DNA from: Limimaricola cinnabarinus
GTDB lineage: Bacteria > Pseudomonadota > Alphaproteobacteria > Rhodobacterales > Rhodobacteraceae
Assembly: GCF_002723615.1 (NCBI RefSeq)
Contig: NZ_KZ304951.1
Coordinates: 517,344 to 581,343 of the forward strand
Reading direction: 5' to 3'
Length of the DNA: 64,000 bases
Below, in pieces: positions 16,318-21,164 of the stretch; the first letter of the stretch is position 1; each line of letters opens with the position of its first letter. Below the pieces are notes generated by a model that ran no database searches, was not told where the DNA came from, and worked only from the letters and a program-made list of their open reading frames with translations. Position numbers and translations under genes: made by a program.

Positions 16318-17322
16318 ATGCAGAAGTTTTCCCTACTCGATCTCGCCCCCGTCACCGAAGACGAAACCCCGGCGCAGGCGCTGGCCCATGCCGCCGATCT
16401 CGCCCGCCACGCCGAGGCCCTGGGCTATCACCGCTATTGGCTGGCCGAGCATCACAACATGCCCGGCATCGCCTCCGCCGCCACGGCGGTGGCGATCGGC
16501 CATGTCGCGCAGGCGACATCGACCATCCGCGTCGGCGCGGGCGGCATCATGCTGCCCAACCACGCGCCGCTGATCGTGGCCGAGCAGTTCGGCACGCTCG
16601 ACGCGCTGCACCCCGGCCGGGTCGATCTCGGGCTGGGGCGCGCGCCCGGCACCGACGGCGCCACCGCGCAGGCGCTGCGCCGCTACAACCAGTCCGCCGA
16701 CGCCTTCCCGCAGGACGTGGTCGAGCTGATCTCCTATCTCGACGATGACGAGGGCCGCGGCCCGGTGCGGGCGATGCCGGGCATGGGCTCGCATCTGCCG
16801 GTCTGGATCCTCGGCTCATCGACCTTCGGCGCGCAGCTCGCCGCCTATCTCGGCCTGCCCTACGCCTTTGCCAGCCATTTCGCGCCGCAGATGCTCGAGC
16901 CCGCGATCAAGGCCTACCGCGAGGGGTTCCGCCCCTCCGAGCGGCTGTCGGAGCCCTATTTCATGATGGCCGCCGGGCTGCACGCCGCCGACACGGACGA
17001 GGAGGCGCGCTATCACCGCTCCTCGCAGATCCTGTCCTTCGCGCGGCTGCGCACCGGCACGCCGGGCCGCCTGTCGCGCCCGGTCGAAAACGTGGCCGAT
17101 CACGTGCCCGCCAGCGCCATCGCGGGCGCCGAGGCGGCGCTGTCGGTCTCGGCCACGGGCGGCCCCGACACGGTGCGCCGCCAGCTCGGCGCGCTGATCG
17201 AGCGCTACCGGCCCGACGAGTTGATGCTGACCGGCATGATGTTCGACCCAGAGGCGCGCAAGCGCAGCTTCGAGATCGGCGCAGAGGCCCTGTCGGACAT
17301 GAAAACGCCCGCCATGACCTGA
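16318..17322 (+). CDS. luciferase-like flavin-dependent monooxygenase (MsnO8-type)
   Basis: A 334-residue LLM-class oxidoreductase, expected to use reduced FMN or F420-like flavin and oxygen. Family features are the N-terminal FSLLDLAPV, the block [66 protein letters not shown], and [21 protein letters not shown] lies 6 nt before the ATG at 16318. It is a single gene followed by a strong hairpin. The substrate is unknown; members of this subgroup are common in bacteria as orphan monooxygenases. Confidence 0.9.
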
Positions 17323-17348
17323 GCCGGGGCGGGCGCGAAATCGCGATG

Positions 17349-17368
17349 CGGGCGGCGCGAGCCGCCCG
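17349..17368 (+). terminator. terminator between the monooxygenase and decarboxylase genes
   Basis: An 8-bp perfect stem, CGGGCGGC (17349-17356) with GCCGCCCG (17361-17368), closed by a GCGA tetraloop and followed by TTTCCGTTC. It lies 27 nt after the monooxygenase stop and 8 nt from the stop of the convergent decarboxylase gene, so it can serve both. Confidence 0.7.
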
Positions 17369-17375
17369 TTTCCGT

Positions 17376-18545
17376 TCAGATCACCACCACGTCCAGCGGC
17401 GGAAAGCCGTTGAAGCAGACCGAGGAATAGGTCGAGGTATAGGCCCCGGTGTTGCGGATGAGTACCCGGTCGCCCGATTTGAGGCTCAAGGGCAGGTTCA
17501 TGGGCCGCTTTTCGTAAAGCACGTCGGCGCTGTCGCAGGACGGACCGGCAAGGATGCAAGGCCCCGTCGTCTCGCCGTCATGCGGGGTGACGAACTGGTA
17601 GCGGATCGCCTCGCCCTCGGTCTCGGCCAGCCCCGAGAAACGGCCGATCGAGAGATAGACCCAGCGATGCATGTCGCGCTCGGACTTGCGCGAGGTGAGC
17701 ATCACCTCGCAGGCGATCACGCCGGCTTCGGCGACCATGCCGCGGCCCGGCTCGGCCATGATGCGGCGCGCGCCCGGGAAACGGTCCTCGACAAGCGCCA
17801 TCACGGCGGCGGCGTAATCGGTCGGCGCCTGGATCTCCTCGCCGTAGAAGGCCGGGAAACCGCCGCCGATGTTGAGAAGCTCCAGATCGTGGCCCGCCTC
17901 GCGCGCCGCCGCCCAGATGGTCGACAGCTCGTCGAGCACCGGCGCCCACATCTCGGCATGGCGCGTCTGCGAGCCCACGTGGAACGAGAAGCCCAGCGGC
18001 TCCAGCCCCAGCTCGATCGCGCGGTCCAGAAGCTTCAGCGCGGTGTCGCGGTCGCAGCCGAACTTGCGGGTGAGCGGCCAGTCGGCGGTCGAGGTCTCGA
18101 CGATCAGGCGCACATAGACCTGCGCGCCCGGCGCGTGCTCGGCGATCTTCTCAAGCTCCTCCTCGGCATCGACGGCGAACATGCGGATGCCCGCGTGATG
18201 CGCGAAGGCGATGTCGGAGACGCGCTTGATGGTATTGCCGAAGGAGACATGCTCGGGCCGCGCGCCCTGGGACAGGCACAGCTCGATCTCGGCGCGCGAG
18301 GCGGCGTCGAAATGCGAGCCGAGGGCCACGAGCCGCTCGATGATCGCGGGATGCGGGTTGGCCTTCACCGCGTAATGGATGTCGGCGCGGCCCAGACCGG
18401 CGCGCAGCGCCTCGAACTGGGTCTCCACCCGGTCCACGTCGATGACCAGCGTCGGCCGGTCGAACTCGGTGGTGGCCGCATAGGCCTCCAGGCGGGAATC
18501 GACGGCGAAAGAGGGGGCGCTGGCGCCCGCGTAATATGCAGTCAT
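17376..18545 (-). CDS. ornithine/lysine decarboxylase, PLP fold type III
   Basis: A 389-residue enzyme of the eukaryotic-like (alanine-racemase fold) ornithine decarboxylase family, giving putrescine or cadaverine for polyamine synthesis. The PLP Lys is residue 61 in IHYAVKANPHP. The glycine loop is LNIGGGFPAFYG, the phosphate-binding block is AEPGRGMVAEAG, and the C-terminal Cys lies in CDSADVLYE. ATG at 18545 has GGAG 6 nt upstream; another ATG two codons earlier (18551) sits directly against that site. A leader of roughly 150 nt with an 18-codon ORF and hairpins precedes it, which suggests control by ornithine or polyamines. Confidence 0.93.
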   Translation of the reverse strand: MTAYYAGASAPSFAVDSRLEAYAATTEFDRPTLVIDVDRVETQFEALRAGLGRADIHYAVKANPHPAIIERLVALGSHFDAASRAEIELCLSQGARPEHVSFGNTIKRVSDIAFAHHAGIRMFAVDAEEELEKIAEHAPGAQVYVRLIVETSTADWPLTRKFGCDRDTALKLLDRAIELGLEPLGFSFHVGSQTRHAEMWAPVLDELSTIWAAAREAGHDLELLNIGGGFPAFYGEEIQAPTDYAAAVMALVEDRFPGARRIMAEPGRGMVAEAGVIACEVMLTSRKSERDMHRWVYLSIGRFSGLAETEGEAIRYQFVTPHDGETTGPCILAGPSCDSADVLYEKRPMNLPLSLKSGDRVLIRNTGAYTSTYSSVCFNGFPPLDVVVI

Positions 18546-18551
18546 GTGCAT

Positions 18552-18660
18552 CTCCGATAGACAGACGGGGGCCCGGAGGGGGCCGGCGGTTCCAAGGGAG
18601 ACGTTACCGTCGCTGCATAAACGCGTGCTGGTCTGTGCGTAGGCCCCCCGAGGGAGACAT
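18552..18660 (-). promoter_or_regulatory. structured leader of the decarboxylase gene (speF-leader-like)
   Basis: The 5' leader of the decarboxylase mRNA. From the upstream end it holds an 18-codon ORF, a small hairpin GACG-GUAA-CGUC (18611-18600) with the ORF's stop in its tetraloop, a CCCUUGGAACC stretch, and a hairpin GGCCC-CCUCC-GGGCC (18584-18570) ending 15 nt before the ribosome site. A conserved RNA called the speF leader is known upstream of alphaproteobacterial ornithine decarboxylase genes; this layout fits that family, though the match was judged by eye. It may act by attenuation or by controlling ribosome access. Confidence 0.55.
18604..18660 (-). CDS. putative leader peptide upstream of the decarboxylase gene
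   Basis: An 18-residue ORF, MSPSGGLRTDQHAFMQRR, stop TAA, lying 58 nt upstream of the decarboxylase start. The last codons give two Arg just before the stop, and the stop sits in the loop of a small hairpin. In gammaproteobacteria the unrelated-looking SpeFL leader peptide senses ornithine inside the ribosome and induces speF; a similar role here is inference. No strong ribosome site is visible (TGGACGC precedes the ATG), so translation is uncertain. Confidence 0.4.
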   Translation of the reverse strand: MSPSGGLRTDQHAFMQRR

Positions 18661-18706
18661 GCGTCCAGGCGTGGCCAGAGGCGCGTGCGTTGGCGTCTTG
18701 AGCGGG

Positions 18707-18735
18707 CATTTGGGGCAAACACCGAGTCGGATCAA
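18707..18735 (-). promoter_or_regulatory. possible promoter of the decarboxylase leader
   Basis: On the minus strand TTGATC (18735-18730) and CAAATG (18712-18707) are 17 nt apart. The -10 match is poor, but the placement would start the transcript near 18700, about 40 nt before the leader ORF. It is a weak call. Confidence 0.3.
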
Positions 18736-18777
18736 GGGGAAATCCCGGGAAAAACGAGATTTTTTTTCACGGCGGTT

Positions 18778-18813
18778 TTGCACCCCGATCCCCCTTGCCC
18801 TATAGGGGTTCAC
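18778..18813 (+). promoter_or_regulatory. predicted sigma70-type promoter of the rluE-like gene
   Basis: TTGCAC (18778-18783) and TATAGG (18801-18806) are separated by exactly 17 nt, with an eight-T tract (18760-18767) about 10 nt upstream of the -35 box that could act as an UP-like element. The start would be near 18813, 20 nt before the ATG. Confidence 0.55.
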
Positions 18814-18832
18814 CGCAGTCCCGGAGGGCCCC

Positions 18833-19381
18833 ATGCCGCGCCTTGTCCTGTTCAACAAGCCGATGAACGTGCTGTCGCAGTTCACCGATGCGCGTAGCCC
18901 CTCGCCGCGTGCCACCCTGTCGGATTTCATCGACCGCCCCGGCGTCTACCCCGCGGGCCGGCTCGATCGCGACAGCGAGGGGCTGATGCTGCTGACCAAT
19001 GACGGGCGGCTGCAGGCGCGCATCTCCGACCCGAAGCACAAGATGGAAAAGACCTATCTCGCGCAGGTCGAGGGCGCGCCGGACGAGGCCGATCTGGAGC
19101 CGCTGCGCCGGGGGCTGACGCTCAAGGACGGGCCGACGAAGCCCGCCCGCGCCCGGCTGATCGAGCCGCCGGATCTGTGGGAGCGCGACCCGCCGGTGCG
19201 GTTTCGCAAATCGGTGCCCGACGCCTGGATCGAGATCGCGATCCGCGAGGGGCGCAACCGGCAGGTCCGCCGCATGACCGCCGCCATTGGCCTTCCGACG
19301 CTGCGGCTGGTGCGCTGGCGCATCGGTGACTGGACGCTCGACGGGCTGGCCCCGGGGGACTGGCGCGAAATCGACGCCTGA
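18833..19381 (+). CDS. rluE: 23S rRNA pseudouridine synthase, RluE type
   Basis: A 182-residue RsuA/RluB/E/F-family pseudouridine synthase. The catalytic Asp45 lies in AGRLDRDSEGLMLLTNDG; the family's KTYLAQVEG strand and the C-terminal EGRNRQVRRMTAAIGLPTLRLVR block are present. It lacks an N-terminal S4 domain and begins directly with LVLFNKPMNVLSQF, like RluE, which modifies a single uridine in 23S rRNA. GGAGGG lies 5 nt upstream of the ATG at 18833. Monocistronic, followed after 24 nt by a copy of the 23-bp repeat. Confidence 0.93.
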   Translation: MPRLVLFNKPMNVLSQFTDARSPSPRATLSDFIDRPGVYPAGRLDRDSEGLMLLTNDGRLQARISDPKHKMEKTYLAQVEGAPDEADLEPLRRGLTLKDGPTKPARARLIEPPDLWERDPPVRFRKSVPDAWIEIAIREGRNRQVRRMTAAIGLPTLRLVRWRIGDWTLDGLAPGDWREIDA

Positions 19382-19405
19382 GCCGAGGGGCGGCCATGTC
19401 GGATT

Positions 19406-19428
19406 TGCGTATTTGAAGAAAGATGAAG
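19406..19428 (+). repeat. 23-bp interspersed 3'-end element, copy 1
   Basis: TGCGTATTTG, then AA, then GAAAGATGAA and a final G. It follows the rluE-like stop by 24 nt and reads in the same direction as that gene. It matches four other copies in the window, which differ only in the two central purines and the last base. Confidence 0.9.
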
Positions 19429-19432
19429 GGGA

Positions 19433-19582
19433 TCAGCGCACCGCCAGGCCCGGCTGCCATGCGGCAAACGTCGCCAGAAGCGCGGCCCCACCTCGCGCGT
19501 GACTGCCGTCGACATCGCGGTGATGAGACAGGCAACCAAGAGCCGCGGGCCGGTGCCGCCCCGGGAAAGAAATCTCCGTCAT
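19433..19582 (-). CDS. small ORF downstream of pntB
   Basis: A 49-codon ORF starting MTEISFPGRHRPAALGCL and ending GLAVR. AGGAG lies 7 nt before the ATG at 19582, an ideal ribosome site, which is the main support. It has mixed polar and Ala-rich sequence, two His pairs and one Cys, no signal peptide and no recognised family. It begins 39 nt beyond the pntB terminator, and no promoter is apparent, so expression would need read-through. It may be spurious. Confidence 0.35.
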   Translation of the reverse strand: MTEISFPGRHRPAALGCLSHHRDVDGSHARGGAALLATFAAWQPGLAVR

Positions 19583-19620
19583 GGCGCAACTCCTGCCCAT
19601 GGGGACATGCCCCACAACGC

Positions 19621-19649
19621 GAAAGGCCCCGCGCATGGCGGGGCCTTTC
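19621..19649 (-). terminator. terminator of the pntAB operon
   Basis: A 12-bp perfect stem, GAAAGGCCCCGC (19621-19632) with GCGGGGCCTTTC (19638-19649), around a 5-nt loop, 15 nt beyond the pntB stop on the minus strand. The stem ends in an A/T run on the exit side. It is the clearest intrinsic terminator in this region. Confidence 0.8.
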
Positions 19650-19664
19650 CGTGACCAGCGCCGA

Positions 19665-21164
19665 TCAGGCGATCTTGGTCAGCAGCTCGTCGAGCGACTT
19701 CTTGGCGTCGCCATAGAACATGCGGGTGTTGTCCTTGAAGAAGAGCGGGTTCTCGATGCCGGAGTATCCGGTGCCCTGGCCGCGCTTGGACACGAAGACC
19801 TGTTTCGCCTTCCAGACCTCGAGCACCGGCATCCCGGCGATGGGCGAATTCGGATCGTCCTGCGCGGCCGGGTTCACGATGTCGTTCGAGCCGATGACGA
19901 TGGCGACATCCGTCTCGGGGAAGTCGTCGTTGATCTCGTCCATCTCCATGACGATGTCGTAGGGCACACGCGCCTCGGCCAGAAGCACGTTCATGTGGCC
20001 GGGCAGACGGCCCGCGACCGGGTGGATCGCGAAGCGGACCTCCTTGCCCTGCGCCCGCAGGCGGCGGGTCAGCTCGGAGACCGATTGCTGCGCCTGCGCC
20101 ACCGCCATGCCGTAGCCCGGCACGATCACCACGCTCTCGGCCTCGTCGAGCGCCTGCGCCACGCCGTCGGCATCGATCGCCACCTGCTCGCCCTCGACCT
20201 CCATCGCGGGCCCCGCCGAGCCGCCGAAGCCGCCGAGGATCACCGAGACGAACTTGCGGTTCATCGCCTTGCACATGATGTAGGACAGGATCGCGCCCGA
20301 GGAGCCGACCAGGGCGCCGGTGACGATCAACAGGTCGTTGCCCAGCGTGAAGCCGATCGCCGCGGCGGCCCAGCCCGAGTAGCTGTTCAGCATCGAGACG
20401 ACGACAGGCATGTCGGCGCCGCCGATGCCCATGATCAGGTGCCAGCCGATGAAGCCCGCGATCAGCGTCACCAGAACCATGGTCCAGATGCCCGATCCGG
20501 TGAGGTAGAGCAGACCAAGCGCGAGGCACAGCGCCAGCGCCGCGGCGTTCAGCATGTGGCCGCCGGGCAGCTTTTTGGGCTTGCCGTCGACCTTTCCGGC
20601 AAGCTTGCCGAAGGCCACCACCGAGCCGGTGAAGGTCACCGCGCCGATGAAGATGCCCAAGAACACCTCCGTCTTCAGGATGCCGATCTCGGTCGCGTCC
20701 TTCAGCGCCAGCTTCTTGCCGAAGCCGGTGAGATCACCGAAGAAGCCGCCGCCCGCTTCCAGAAGCTCGGTCGGATCGAGCAGCGCCAGCGCCGCGCGGT
20801 CGAGCCCGTGGGTGGCCAGCAGCGCGTTGATGTCGTGCAGCATGATGTCGGCGTTGAGCCCGATGAACACCGCCGCGAGGCCGACGAAGCTGTGCAGCGC
20901 CGCGACCAGCTGCGGCATTTCGGTCATCTGCACCCGGCCCGCGACGATCCAGCCCGCAAAGCCGCCCGCCGCGATGGCGACGAGGATGAGAAAGAGGTTG
21001 TGCACGCCGGGGCCGAACACGGTGACGAAGACCGCCACCGCCATGCCGGCAATGCCGTACCAGACCGCGCGCTTGGCGCTCTCCTGGTTCGACAGGCCGC
21101 CCAGCGACAGGATGAAGAGAATGGCCGCGACGATATAGGCGGCGGAAACGATGCCGATGCTCAT
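19665..21164 (-). CDS. pntB: NAD(P) transhydrogenase subunit beta
   Basis: The membrane and NADP(H)-binding subunit of proton-translocating transhydrogenase, which uses the proton gradient to make NADPH from NADH. It has 499 residues: an N-terminal membrane domain with about nine helices (residues 1-265, containing the [17 protein letters not shown] segment), then the cytoplasmic NADP domain III with the [14 protein letters not shown] nucleotide fold, [23 protein letters not shown] and [12 protein letters not shown], and the terminal [17 protein letters not shown]. It starts 12 nt after pntA and ends at a strong terminator. Confidence 0.98.

Follow-up and report, generated by a model that had tools for sequence, protein, structure and literature searches.

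We found that the ornithine-decarboxylase-type gene on the minus strand of the window, the whole 64,000-nucleotide stretch of Limimaricola cinnabarinus DNA that was analysed, is preceded by what is, with a probability of about two in three, the 5' leader of its mRNA, a divergent member, in Rhodobacteraceae, of the alphar45/extended-speF lineage that would act at translation. The gene starts with an ATG at 18545 (minus strand). Its product matched Pfam Orn_Arg_deC_N in a profile search (E 5e-52), had 2plj, a lysine/ornithine decarboxylase, as its best solved relative, and was 98% identical to its L. litoreus counterpart. The placement of the leader upstream of a decarboxylase of the ornithine type is based on this profile and this structural relative; the COG0019 label for the ornithine decarboxylase of the speF leader is that given in PMC1273637. 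The features of the locus are listed in Table 1. An earlier note on this DNA had described the ORF MSPSGGLRTDQHAFMQRR, the letters GACG-GUAA-CGUC with the TAA in the loop, CCCUUGGAACC, a GC-rich hairpin and the ribosome site, and all of these were found on the minus strand as described. The note had also proposed a conserved decarboxylase leader related to the speF leader region of alphaproteobacteria, which the shared blocks described below bear out.

Table 1. Features of the leader and its decarboxylase gene, in window coordinates
Feature	Position	Strand	Remarks
Predicted promoter, just 5' of the leader	18707..18735	-	TTGATC 18735-18730, 17-nt spacer, CAAATG 18712-18707; by eye
Block A, predicted RNA 5' end	18673..18698	-	AGACGCCAACGCACGCGCCUCUGGCC; hardly varies along most of its length (79 aligned leaders)
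AGACG, 5' strand of helix P1 within block A	18698-18694	-	P1 co-variation
Variable insert	18618..18672	-	Contains the start codon (ATG) proposed for the 18-codon ORF; length and sequence differ among aligned leaders
Proposed leader ORF MSPSGGLRTDQHAFMQRR	18604..18660	-	Judged not functional; broken in 59/86 distinct leaders
Block B	18599..18617	-	UGCAGCGACGGUAACGUCU; family consensus YGYAGCGACGGUAACGUCU
GACG-GUAA-CGUC hairpin	18611-18600	-	TAA of the ORF in the loop; CCCUUGGAACC directly after
CGUCU, 3' strand of P1	18603-18599	-	Shared with the anti-Shine-Dalgarno tract and the GACG-GUAA-CGUC hairpin
Anti-Shine-Dalgarno CGUCUCC	18597..18603	-	Pairs with 18555-18549 in the predicted fold
GC-rich hairpin between anti-Shine-Dalgarno and Shine-Dalgarno	18558..18594	-	Predicted fold
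Shine-Dalgarno GGAGAUG	18549..18555	-	GGAGA and the next U invariant in 79 aligned leaders
Ornithine-decarboxylase-type gene behind the leader	17379..18545	-	Stop codon at 17376-17378
Start-proximal hairpin in the coding sequence	18515..18528	-	GGGCG-CCAG-CGCCC, about 17 nt past the A of ATG

Conserved blocks and predicted pairing of the Shine-Dalgarno sequence

We aligned 79 of 81 distinct leaders (alignment A1), omitting the divergent L019 and L002, which is nearly identical to L001. In all, block A comes first, followed by a variable insert, block B, a hairpin that also varies, and finally GGAGAUG; the two blocks themselves hardly change. Just upstream of block A lie promoter-like hexamers, from which we infer that block A is the 5' end of the transcript. 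The putative -10 element of the window, CAAATG, is a poor match to the consensus; in the other groups displayed, -35/-10-like pairs occupy a similar site before block A, with different hexamer sequences.

For the pairing tests, 86 of 91 leaders were parsed, the exceptions being L065, L162, L164, L206 and L019. In single-sequence ensembles the Shine-Dalgarno sequence was paired in all 86, with the anti-Shine-Dalgarno tract as its partner in 79, and the mean pairing between the two was 0.87 over 46 family leaders. RNAalifold likewise paired CGUCUCC with the Shine-Dalgarno sequence and also proposed pairs between blocks A and B. The leader of the window was no more stable than its shuffles (z 0.73; 152/200 shuffles equally stable). 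When Shine-Dalgarno partners were swapped between groups, 556 of 5,040 permutations were as good; this was not significant, and for this reason we do not call the duplex co-variation. Any pyrimidine tract can pair with a Shine-Dalgarno sequence. Within the hairpin between the two tracts, three pairs had changed on both sides in some sequences (columns 133-135 with 167-169).

The inner pairs between blocks A and B showed almost no informative variation, and C14-G102 became C-A outside the family; the inner helices are possible only. Covariance models R1 and R2 were built with these helices imposed, and alignments A2-A5 lean towards them. As for the local GACG-GUAA-CGUC hairpin proposed earlier, its letters are present but the hairpin is absent from the predicted whole-leader fold (probability 0.00), in which its CGUC pairs with the Shine-Dalgarno sequence instead. 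The loop was GUAA in 42 and UACG in 8 of the 86 parsed leaders, which we take to be GNRA- or UNCG-like classes. Since the hairpin is impossible in members with GGGC, it would be at most an alternative in some lineages. In a natural variant, L162 (genome G299, about 290-422), most of GCGACGGUAAC is missing from block B and block A is altered; GUCUCC and GGAGAUG are still present.

Co-variation of helix P1

The bases before CGCACG are complementary to the bases after block B, with letters that differ by group. This helix, P1, reads AGACG:CGUCU in the family of the window, GCCC:GGGC in alphar45-type leaders and ACGC:GCGU before speD; other groups have GACGC:GCGUC, GACGU:ACGUC, and GACGC:GUGUU or GUGUC. 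We tested P1 over 16 family/gene groups (15 families), in which 227 loci were reduced to 108 distinct pairs, and alignments A2-A5 were not used. Counting only loci whose strands fitted the patterns of the test, the summed score was 200 against a permuted-partner mean of 143, and 10 of 20,000 permutations were as good. The test has limits: its groups are related to one another, recognition of the 3' strands relied on four strings drawn up once the sequences had been inspected, and for 5 of the 18 distinct pairs of family f66 the best score came from another register. We take the co-variation as a strong indication, not as a calibrated probability.

The P1 result bears on whether blocks A and B are read by a protein or a trans-acting RNA with no direct binding of a metabolite, which we consider rather unlikely. 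Such a reader would suit the fact that sequence is conserved more than structure, and the SmrC45 transcript of S. meliloti co-purifies with Hfq, as reported in PMC2848018. The co-variation, however, suggests that a helix has been kept and not sequence alone, and no candidate regulator was identified in the present analysis.

The proposed leader peptide

The earlier note had suggested a conserved peptide that would make part of the RNA conservation a coding signal, and hence a second, independent peptide sensing ornithine or polyamines. The ORF runs from an ATG at 18660-18658 to a TAA at 18606-18604 (minus strand). It is the tail of an open frame that reaches 108 codons when counted from an ATG, is no more than chance expectation, and has only a weak GGA upstream of its ATG. 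We collected 110 homologous loci from relatives and named genomes; 97 had the exact core motif and gave 86 distinct leaders, and the 13 without it included L016 and L018, in whose genomes R1 detects a diverged leader.

The ORF codons were then compared across the homologous leaders. The codon preceding Arg-Arg was replaced by a stop in 58 of the 86 distinct leaders, one more had a stop inside the Arg-Arg codons, and the frame was open in 27. Stops therefore break the ORF in 59/86 while the RNA blocks are kept, indicating that coding does not account for the conservation. In 21 of the 27 open frames an ATG lies four codons ahead of the stop (MQRR), and in nine of these it is the only start. The 18-codon ATG start occurred in the window's leader only; the seven other congeneric leaders aligned have AAG or ACG in its place or have lost the triplet. 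In leaders of other families the TAA was mostly lost. With the frame closed in 59/86 and the long start unique to the window, we rejected a conserved sensing peptide.

A leader peptide ending in Arg-Arg that senses arginine, ornithine or polyamines, like the enterobacterial ORF34/SpeFL, is thus highly improbable here, and by the above comparisons it is already refuted as a conserved peptide. The analogy is an attractive one: the frame is present in the window, its MQRR-type ATG recurs in 21/86 distinct leaders, and in Salmonella the speF leader described in PMC6386406 is likewise long, precedes a decarboxylase gene and keeps the ribosome site hidden, and the Arg-Arg codons of its ORF34 regulate speF. 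The leader of the window differs from it in having no conserved peptide, and a tempting but false reading is thereby removed.

Distribution and linkage to polyamine-synthesis genes

With R1, the element was found in 108 of 345 genomes of the window's own family, Rhodobacteraceae. A decarboxylase at E<=1e-60 was present in 111 of these 345 genomes, and all 108 element-bearing genomes were among the 111. In G015 the decarboxylase was just 43% identical and no leader was seen; G363 lacked an element match because its contig ends before the leader; and the leader of G024 (L019) was missed by R1 and found with R2 at 36 bits. Over the class, R1 matched 10 of 385 genomes, three of them from the own family. 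R2 found the element in 68/75 genomes of family f66 and 29/40 of family f10. By tblastn, a decarboxylase was present at 58/58 loci in one set and at 53/63 in another; nine of the ten loci without it precede speD, and one is a 405-base contig end.

A class-wide search with a two-motif pattern matched 50 of 385 genomes, a count that carries no weight since a reversed-pattern control matched at least as many. About 25 genomes were retained by eye for fitting context, and their loci add families f56, f114, f119, f145 and f156. A decarboxylase followed at >=48% identity in 16 of 35 pattern-search loci and at about 33% in 2; the nearest decarboxylase is 33-34% identical in f119 and f145, so the enzyme there may differ. 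Taken over all these sequences, the element looks like an old, widely conserved alphaproteobacterial regulatory leader tightly linked to polyamine-synthesis genes.

Two element matches were present in 18 of 40 genomes of family f10. We fetched nine weaker sites from this family (L198-L206; E 1e-5 to 9e-4), one of which is the sole match in its genome (G804). At all nine, the element precedes genes for an AdoMet decarboxylase and a spermidine synthase, as judged by sequence; profiles confirmed speD above cut-off in L200, L202 and L206 and speE in L202 and L206 (TIGR03330, TIGR00417). These second target genes, speD and speE, both belong to spermidine synthesis.

Relation to alphar45 and the speF element

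Rfam release 15 gave no match in window positions 17000-21000 at E<=1 and nothing in the full window at gathering thresholds. The window did not reach the 40-bit gathering threshold of RF02347, for which the matches in its own genome at E<=10 lay on other contigs. Nor did it reach the 37-bit threshold of RF00518, and 14 control genomes were also without a match to that model. The alphaproteobacterial speF leader invoked in the earlier note is therefore not matched in the window as a covariance model; RF00518 covers the downstream half of the Rhizobiales-type leader, which is the part downstream of block B, and the half that corresponds to the window's element is the one covered by RF02347. In the other direction, RF00518 was found in 8 of 240 class genomes, and all eight loci contain CGCACGUGCC near a promoter-like sequence. 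Farther on, but still ahead of the RF00518 part, seven of them have GCAACGACGG exactly, with GCAACGACGU in L116. RF02347 scored above threshold over the part upstream of RF00518 in 11/11 loci tested, and R2 matched 4 of the 8 RF00518 loci (E 0.02-0.1).

We also ran RF02347 on 17 genomes, and it matched the element's own site in four: above cut-off in G654 and G614, at E 0.0021 in G621, and in G200 at E 0.11, no better than off-site matches elsewhere. An Rfam scan of 16 loci at E up to 10 gave ar45 in L267 alone (26.5 bits, below cut-off) and one tRNA above cut-off in L153; its remaining matches look like chance. The proposed homology between the window and alphar45 is supported mainly by the blocks in common, the order in which they occur, the gene context and the families that bridge the two, rather than by any direct score. 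At the 5' end, before the decarboxylase, the window has the alphar45-type blocks CGCACGYGCC ... GYARCGACGG (motif identity, not a model score). In alphar45 (RF02347, S. meliloti SmrC45) the same two blocks occur in the same order, the predicted 5' end lies at block A, and a decarboxylase follows in the 11 RF02347-type loci examined, as in the window.

Both have a predicted closing helix in which the first bases would pair with the strand after block B, by complementarity and co-variation, but its letters are GCCC:GGGC in alphar45 and GACG:CGUC in the window. They differ also in what comes after P1, which is a U-run in alphar45, whereas the window has UCUCCC and ends in the ribosome site. The commonest continuation after P1 in the own family was UCCCUUGGAA (82 loci), and the family mostly has UCCCUU there; most loci of most other families have 5-6 U at this place.

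The extended speF element, part of which is RF00518, has the same type of enzyme downstream as the window. According to Corbino et al. (2005; PMC1273637), its conservation begins close to the transcription start and extends into a stem that carries a large insertion at its top, an arrangement that agrees with blocks A and B. Most likely, the 5' part of this element belongs to the same lineage. In four RF00518-type leaders (L112, L113, L239, L265), the CGCACGU of block A was seen by eye to be complementary to ACGUGCG in the RF00518 part; the two halves of such a leader may pair with each other.

That alphar45 is an independent small RNA gene merely located before the decarboxylase seems improbable to us. 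Separate transcripts have been reported: the speF element was earlier detected as the candidate sRNA smrC45 (PMC2573895), the S. meliloti SmrC45 transcript is reported to end at a U-run that follows a hairpin (PMC2780559), and in Bartonella alphar45 lies immediately upstream of the speF leader and was read as a separate transcript (PMC7717549). A terminated leader, however, would yield the same small transcript, the own-family element runs into the decarboxylase Shine-Dalgarno sequence without a U-run, and the decarboxylase follows in 58/58 loci.

Two other published leaders share general features with that of the window. The odc1 motif of alphaproteobacteria is also a decarboxylase leader with a sequestered ribosome site; as described in PMC8632094, it carries a pair of UUG starts 2 nt apart together with a uORF of 11 residues, whereas the window has an AUG and no such pair. 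We set odc1 aside on this published description, not on its sequence, there being no UUG pair before the AUG at 18545. The spermidine riboswitch, a SAM-I variant, also precedes speD, speE and decarboxylase genes; it is described in PMC10853860 as acting by transcription termination, whereas the leader of the window has a translational layout and no SAM riboswitch match in Rfam.

A model of translational control

The CGUC of block B cannot join P1 and the Shine-Dalgarno duplex together, which suggests an ON and an OFF form. CGUC(U) would pair with one partner at a time: in P1, in the local hairpin or with the Shine-Dalgarno sequence. In the ON form, P1 or the GACG-GUAA-CGUC hairpin would be formed and the ribosome site free; in the OFF form, CGUCUCC would be paired to GGAGAUG. 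A signal tied to polyamine status would shift the balance. The default predicted fold is OFF, so this signal would need to favour P1 or the hairpin, and P1 receives almost no weight in folding (mean 0.004), so the ON form would need outside help. A leader peptide would not be required. With a U-run in place of UCUCCC after P1, the same helix could act as an intrinsic terminator. alphar45 would then be the terminated leader in bacteria that have P1 and the U-run, and in Rhodobacteraceae the output would have become translational.

A wider reading is more tentative, at well short of even odds. One lineage would control polyamine synthesis in 15 alphaproteobacterial families, placed before ornithine decarboxylase and in one family also before speD-speE. 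The Hfq-binding alphar45 would be its prematurely terminated 5' product and not an independent gene. In Rhodobacteraceae the output would have moved from attenuation (P1 with a U-run) to occlusion of the ribosome site, with the sensing core almost unchanged, and what this core senses may be a ligand related to polyamines that has yet to be tried.

Rather unlikely, although it has several points in its favour, is that the leader is a true riboswitch in which blocks A and B form the aptamer for homospermidine, carboxyspermidine, decarboxylated SAM or a similar polyamine-related metabolite. The near-invariant nucleotides, the overlap of the P1 3' strand with the ribosome-site platform, and the linkage to both ODC and speDE would fit this. 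The inner helices of such an aptamer are candidates only, however, and the Agrobacterium leader is described in PMC1273637 as binding none of ornithine, lysine, diaminopimelate, putrescine, cadaverine and spermidine, which argues against the simplest riboswitch.

PMC2573895 and PMC7717549 already state that alphar45 is adjacent to the speF element or overlaps it. New here are the reading of alphar45 as the head of one decarboxylase leader, a far wider spread, and speD-speE as a second target. Among the papers and passages covered by a literature search, we found no report of the leader in Rhodobacteraceae or before speD and no reading of alphar45 as a terminated ODC leader; both may nevertheless be known. 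Because the targets are shared, polyamine status is where the signal should be sought, and the idea of a terminated leader becomes open to direct test.

Start-proximal hairpins and short ORFs behind the leader

Of 76 distinct family sequences, 67 had a strong stem just inside the coding sequence, compared with 197 of 623 control windows taken from farther downstream, in a test whose threshold was chosen after a first look and whose start codons were found by pattern. Besides the 76 family sequences, the test samples comprised 6 sequences from other families and 7 before speD. There were 44 distinct stems, mostly beginning 14-18 nt past the A of the start codon. The contrast in free energy was weaker, with a mean z of -0.63 (79 sequences) against -0.09 (184 windows). 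The hairpin at 18515-18528 in the window was maintained across the family through changing stems.

Together with short ORFs behind the leader, these start-proximal hairpins are candidates for a second control layer. In the f66 loci L155, L157, L158 and L159, a 38-42-codon ORF, distinct from the decarboxylase, starts at the AUG that follows the leader, and L235 has a separate ORF of ~16 codons at this place; several of these are MVA..AGR.PR-like. This arrangement suggests translational coupling or Rho-type attenuation at those loci. At the speD sites L198-L206, the corresponding AUG begins an ORF of ~8 codons (MSGSSLRG, MPDYSLRG, MLYLNGRG, MPDYYVRG and similar); its stop is located in the loop of a hairpin (GGGGC...GCCCC) some 200 nt upstream of speD.
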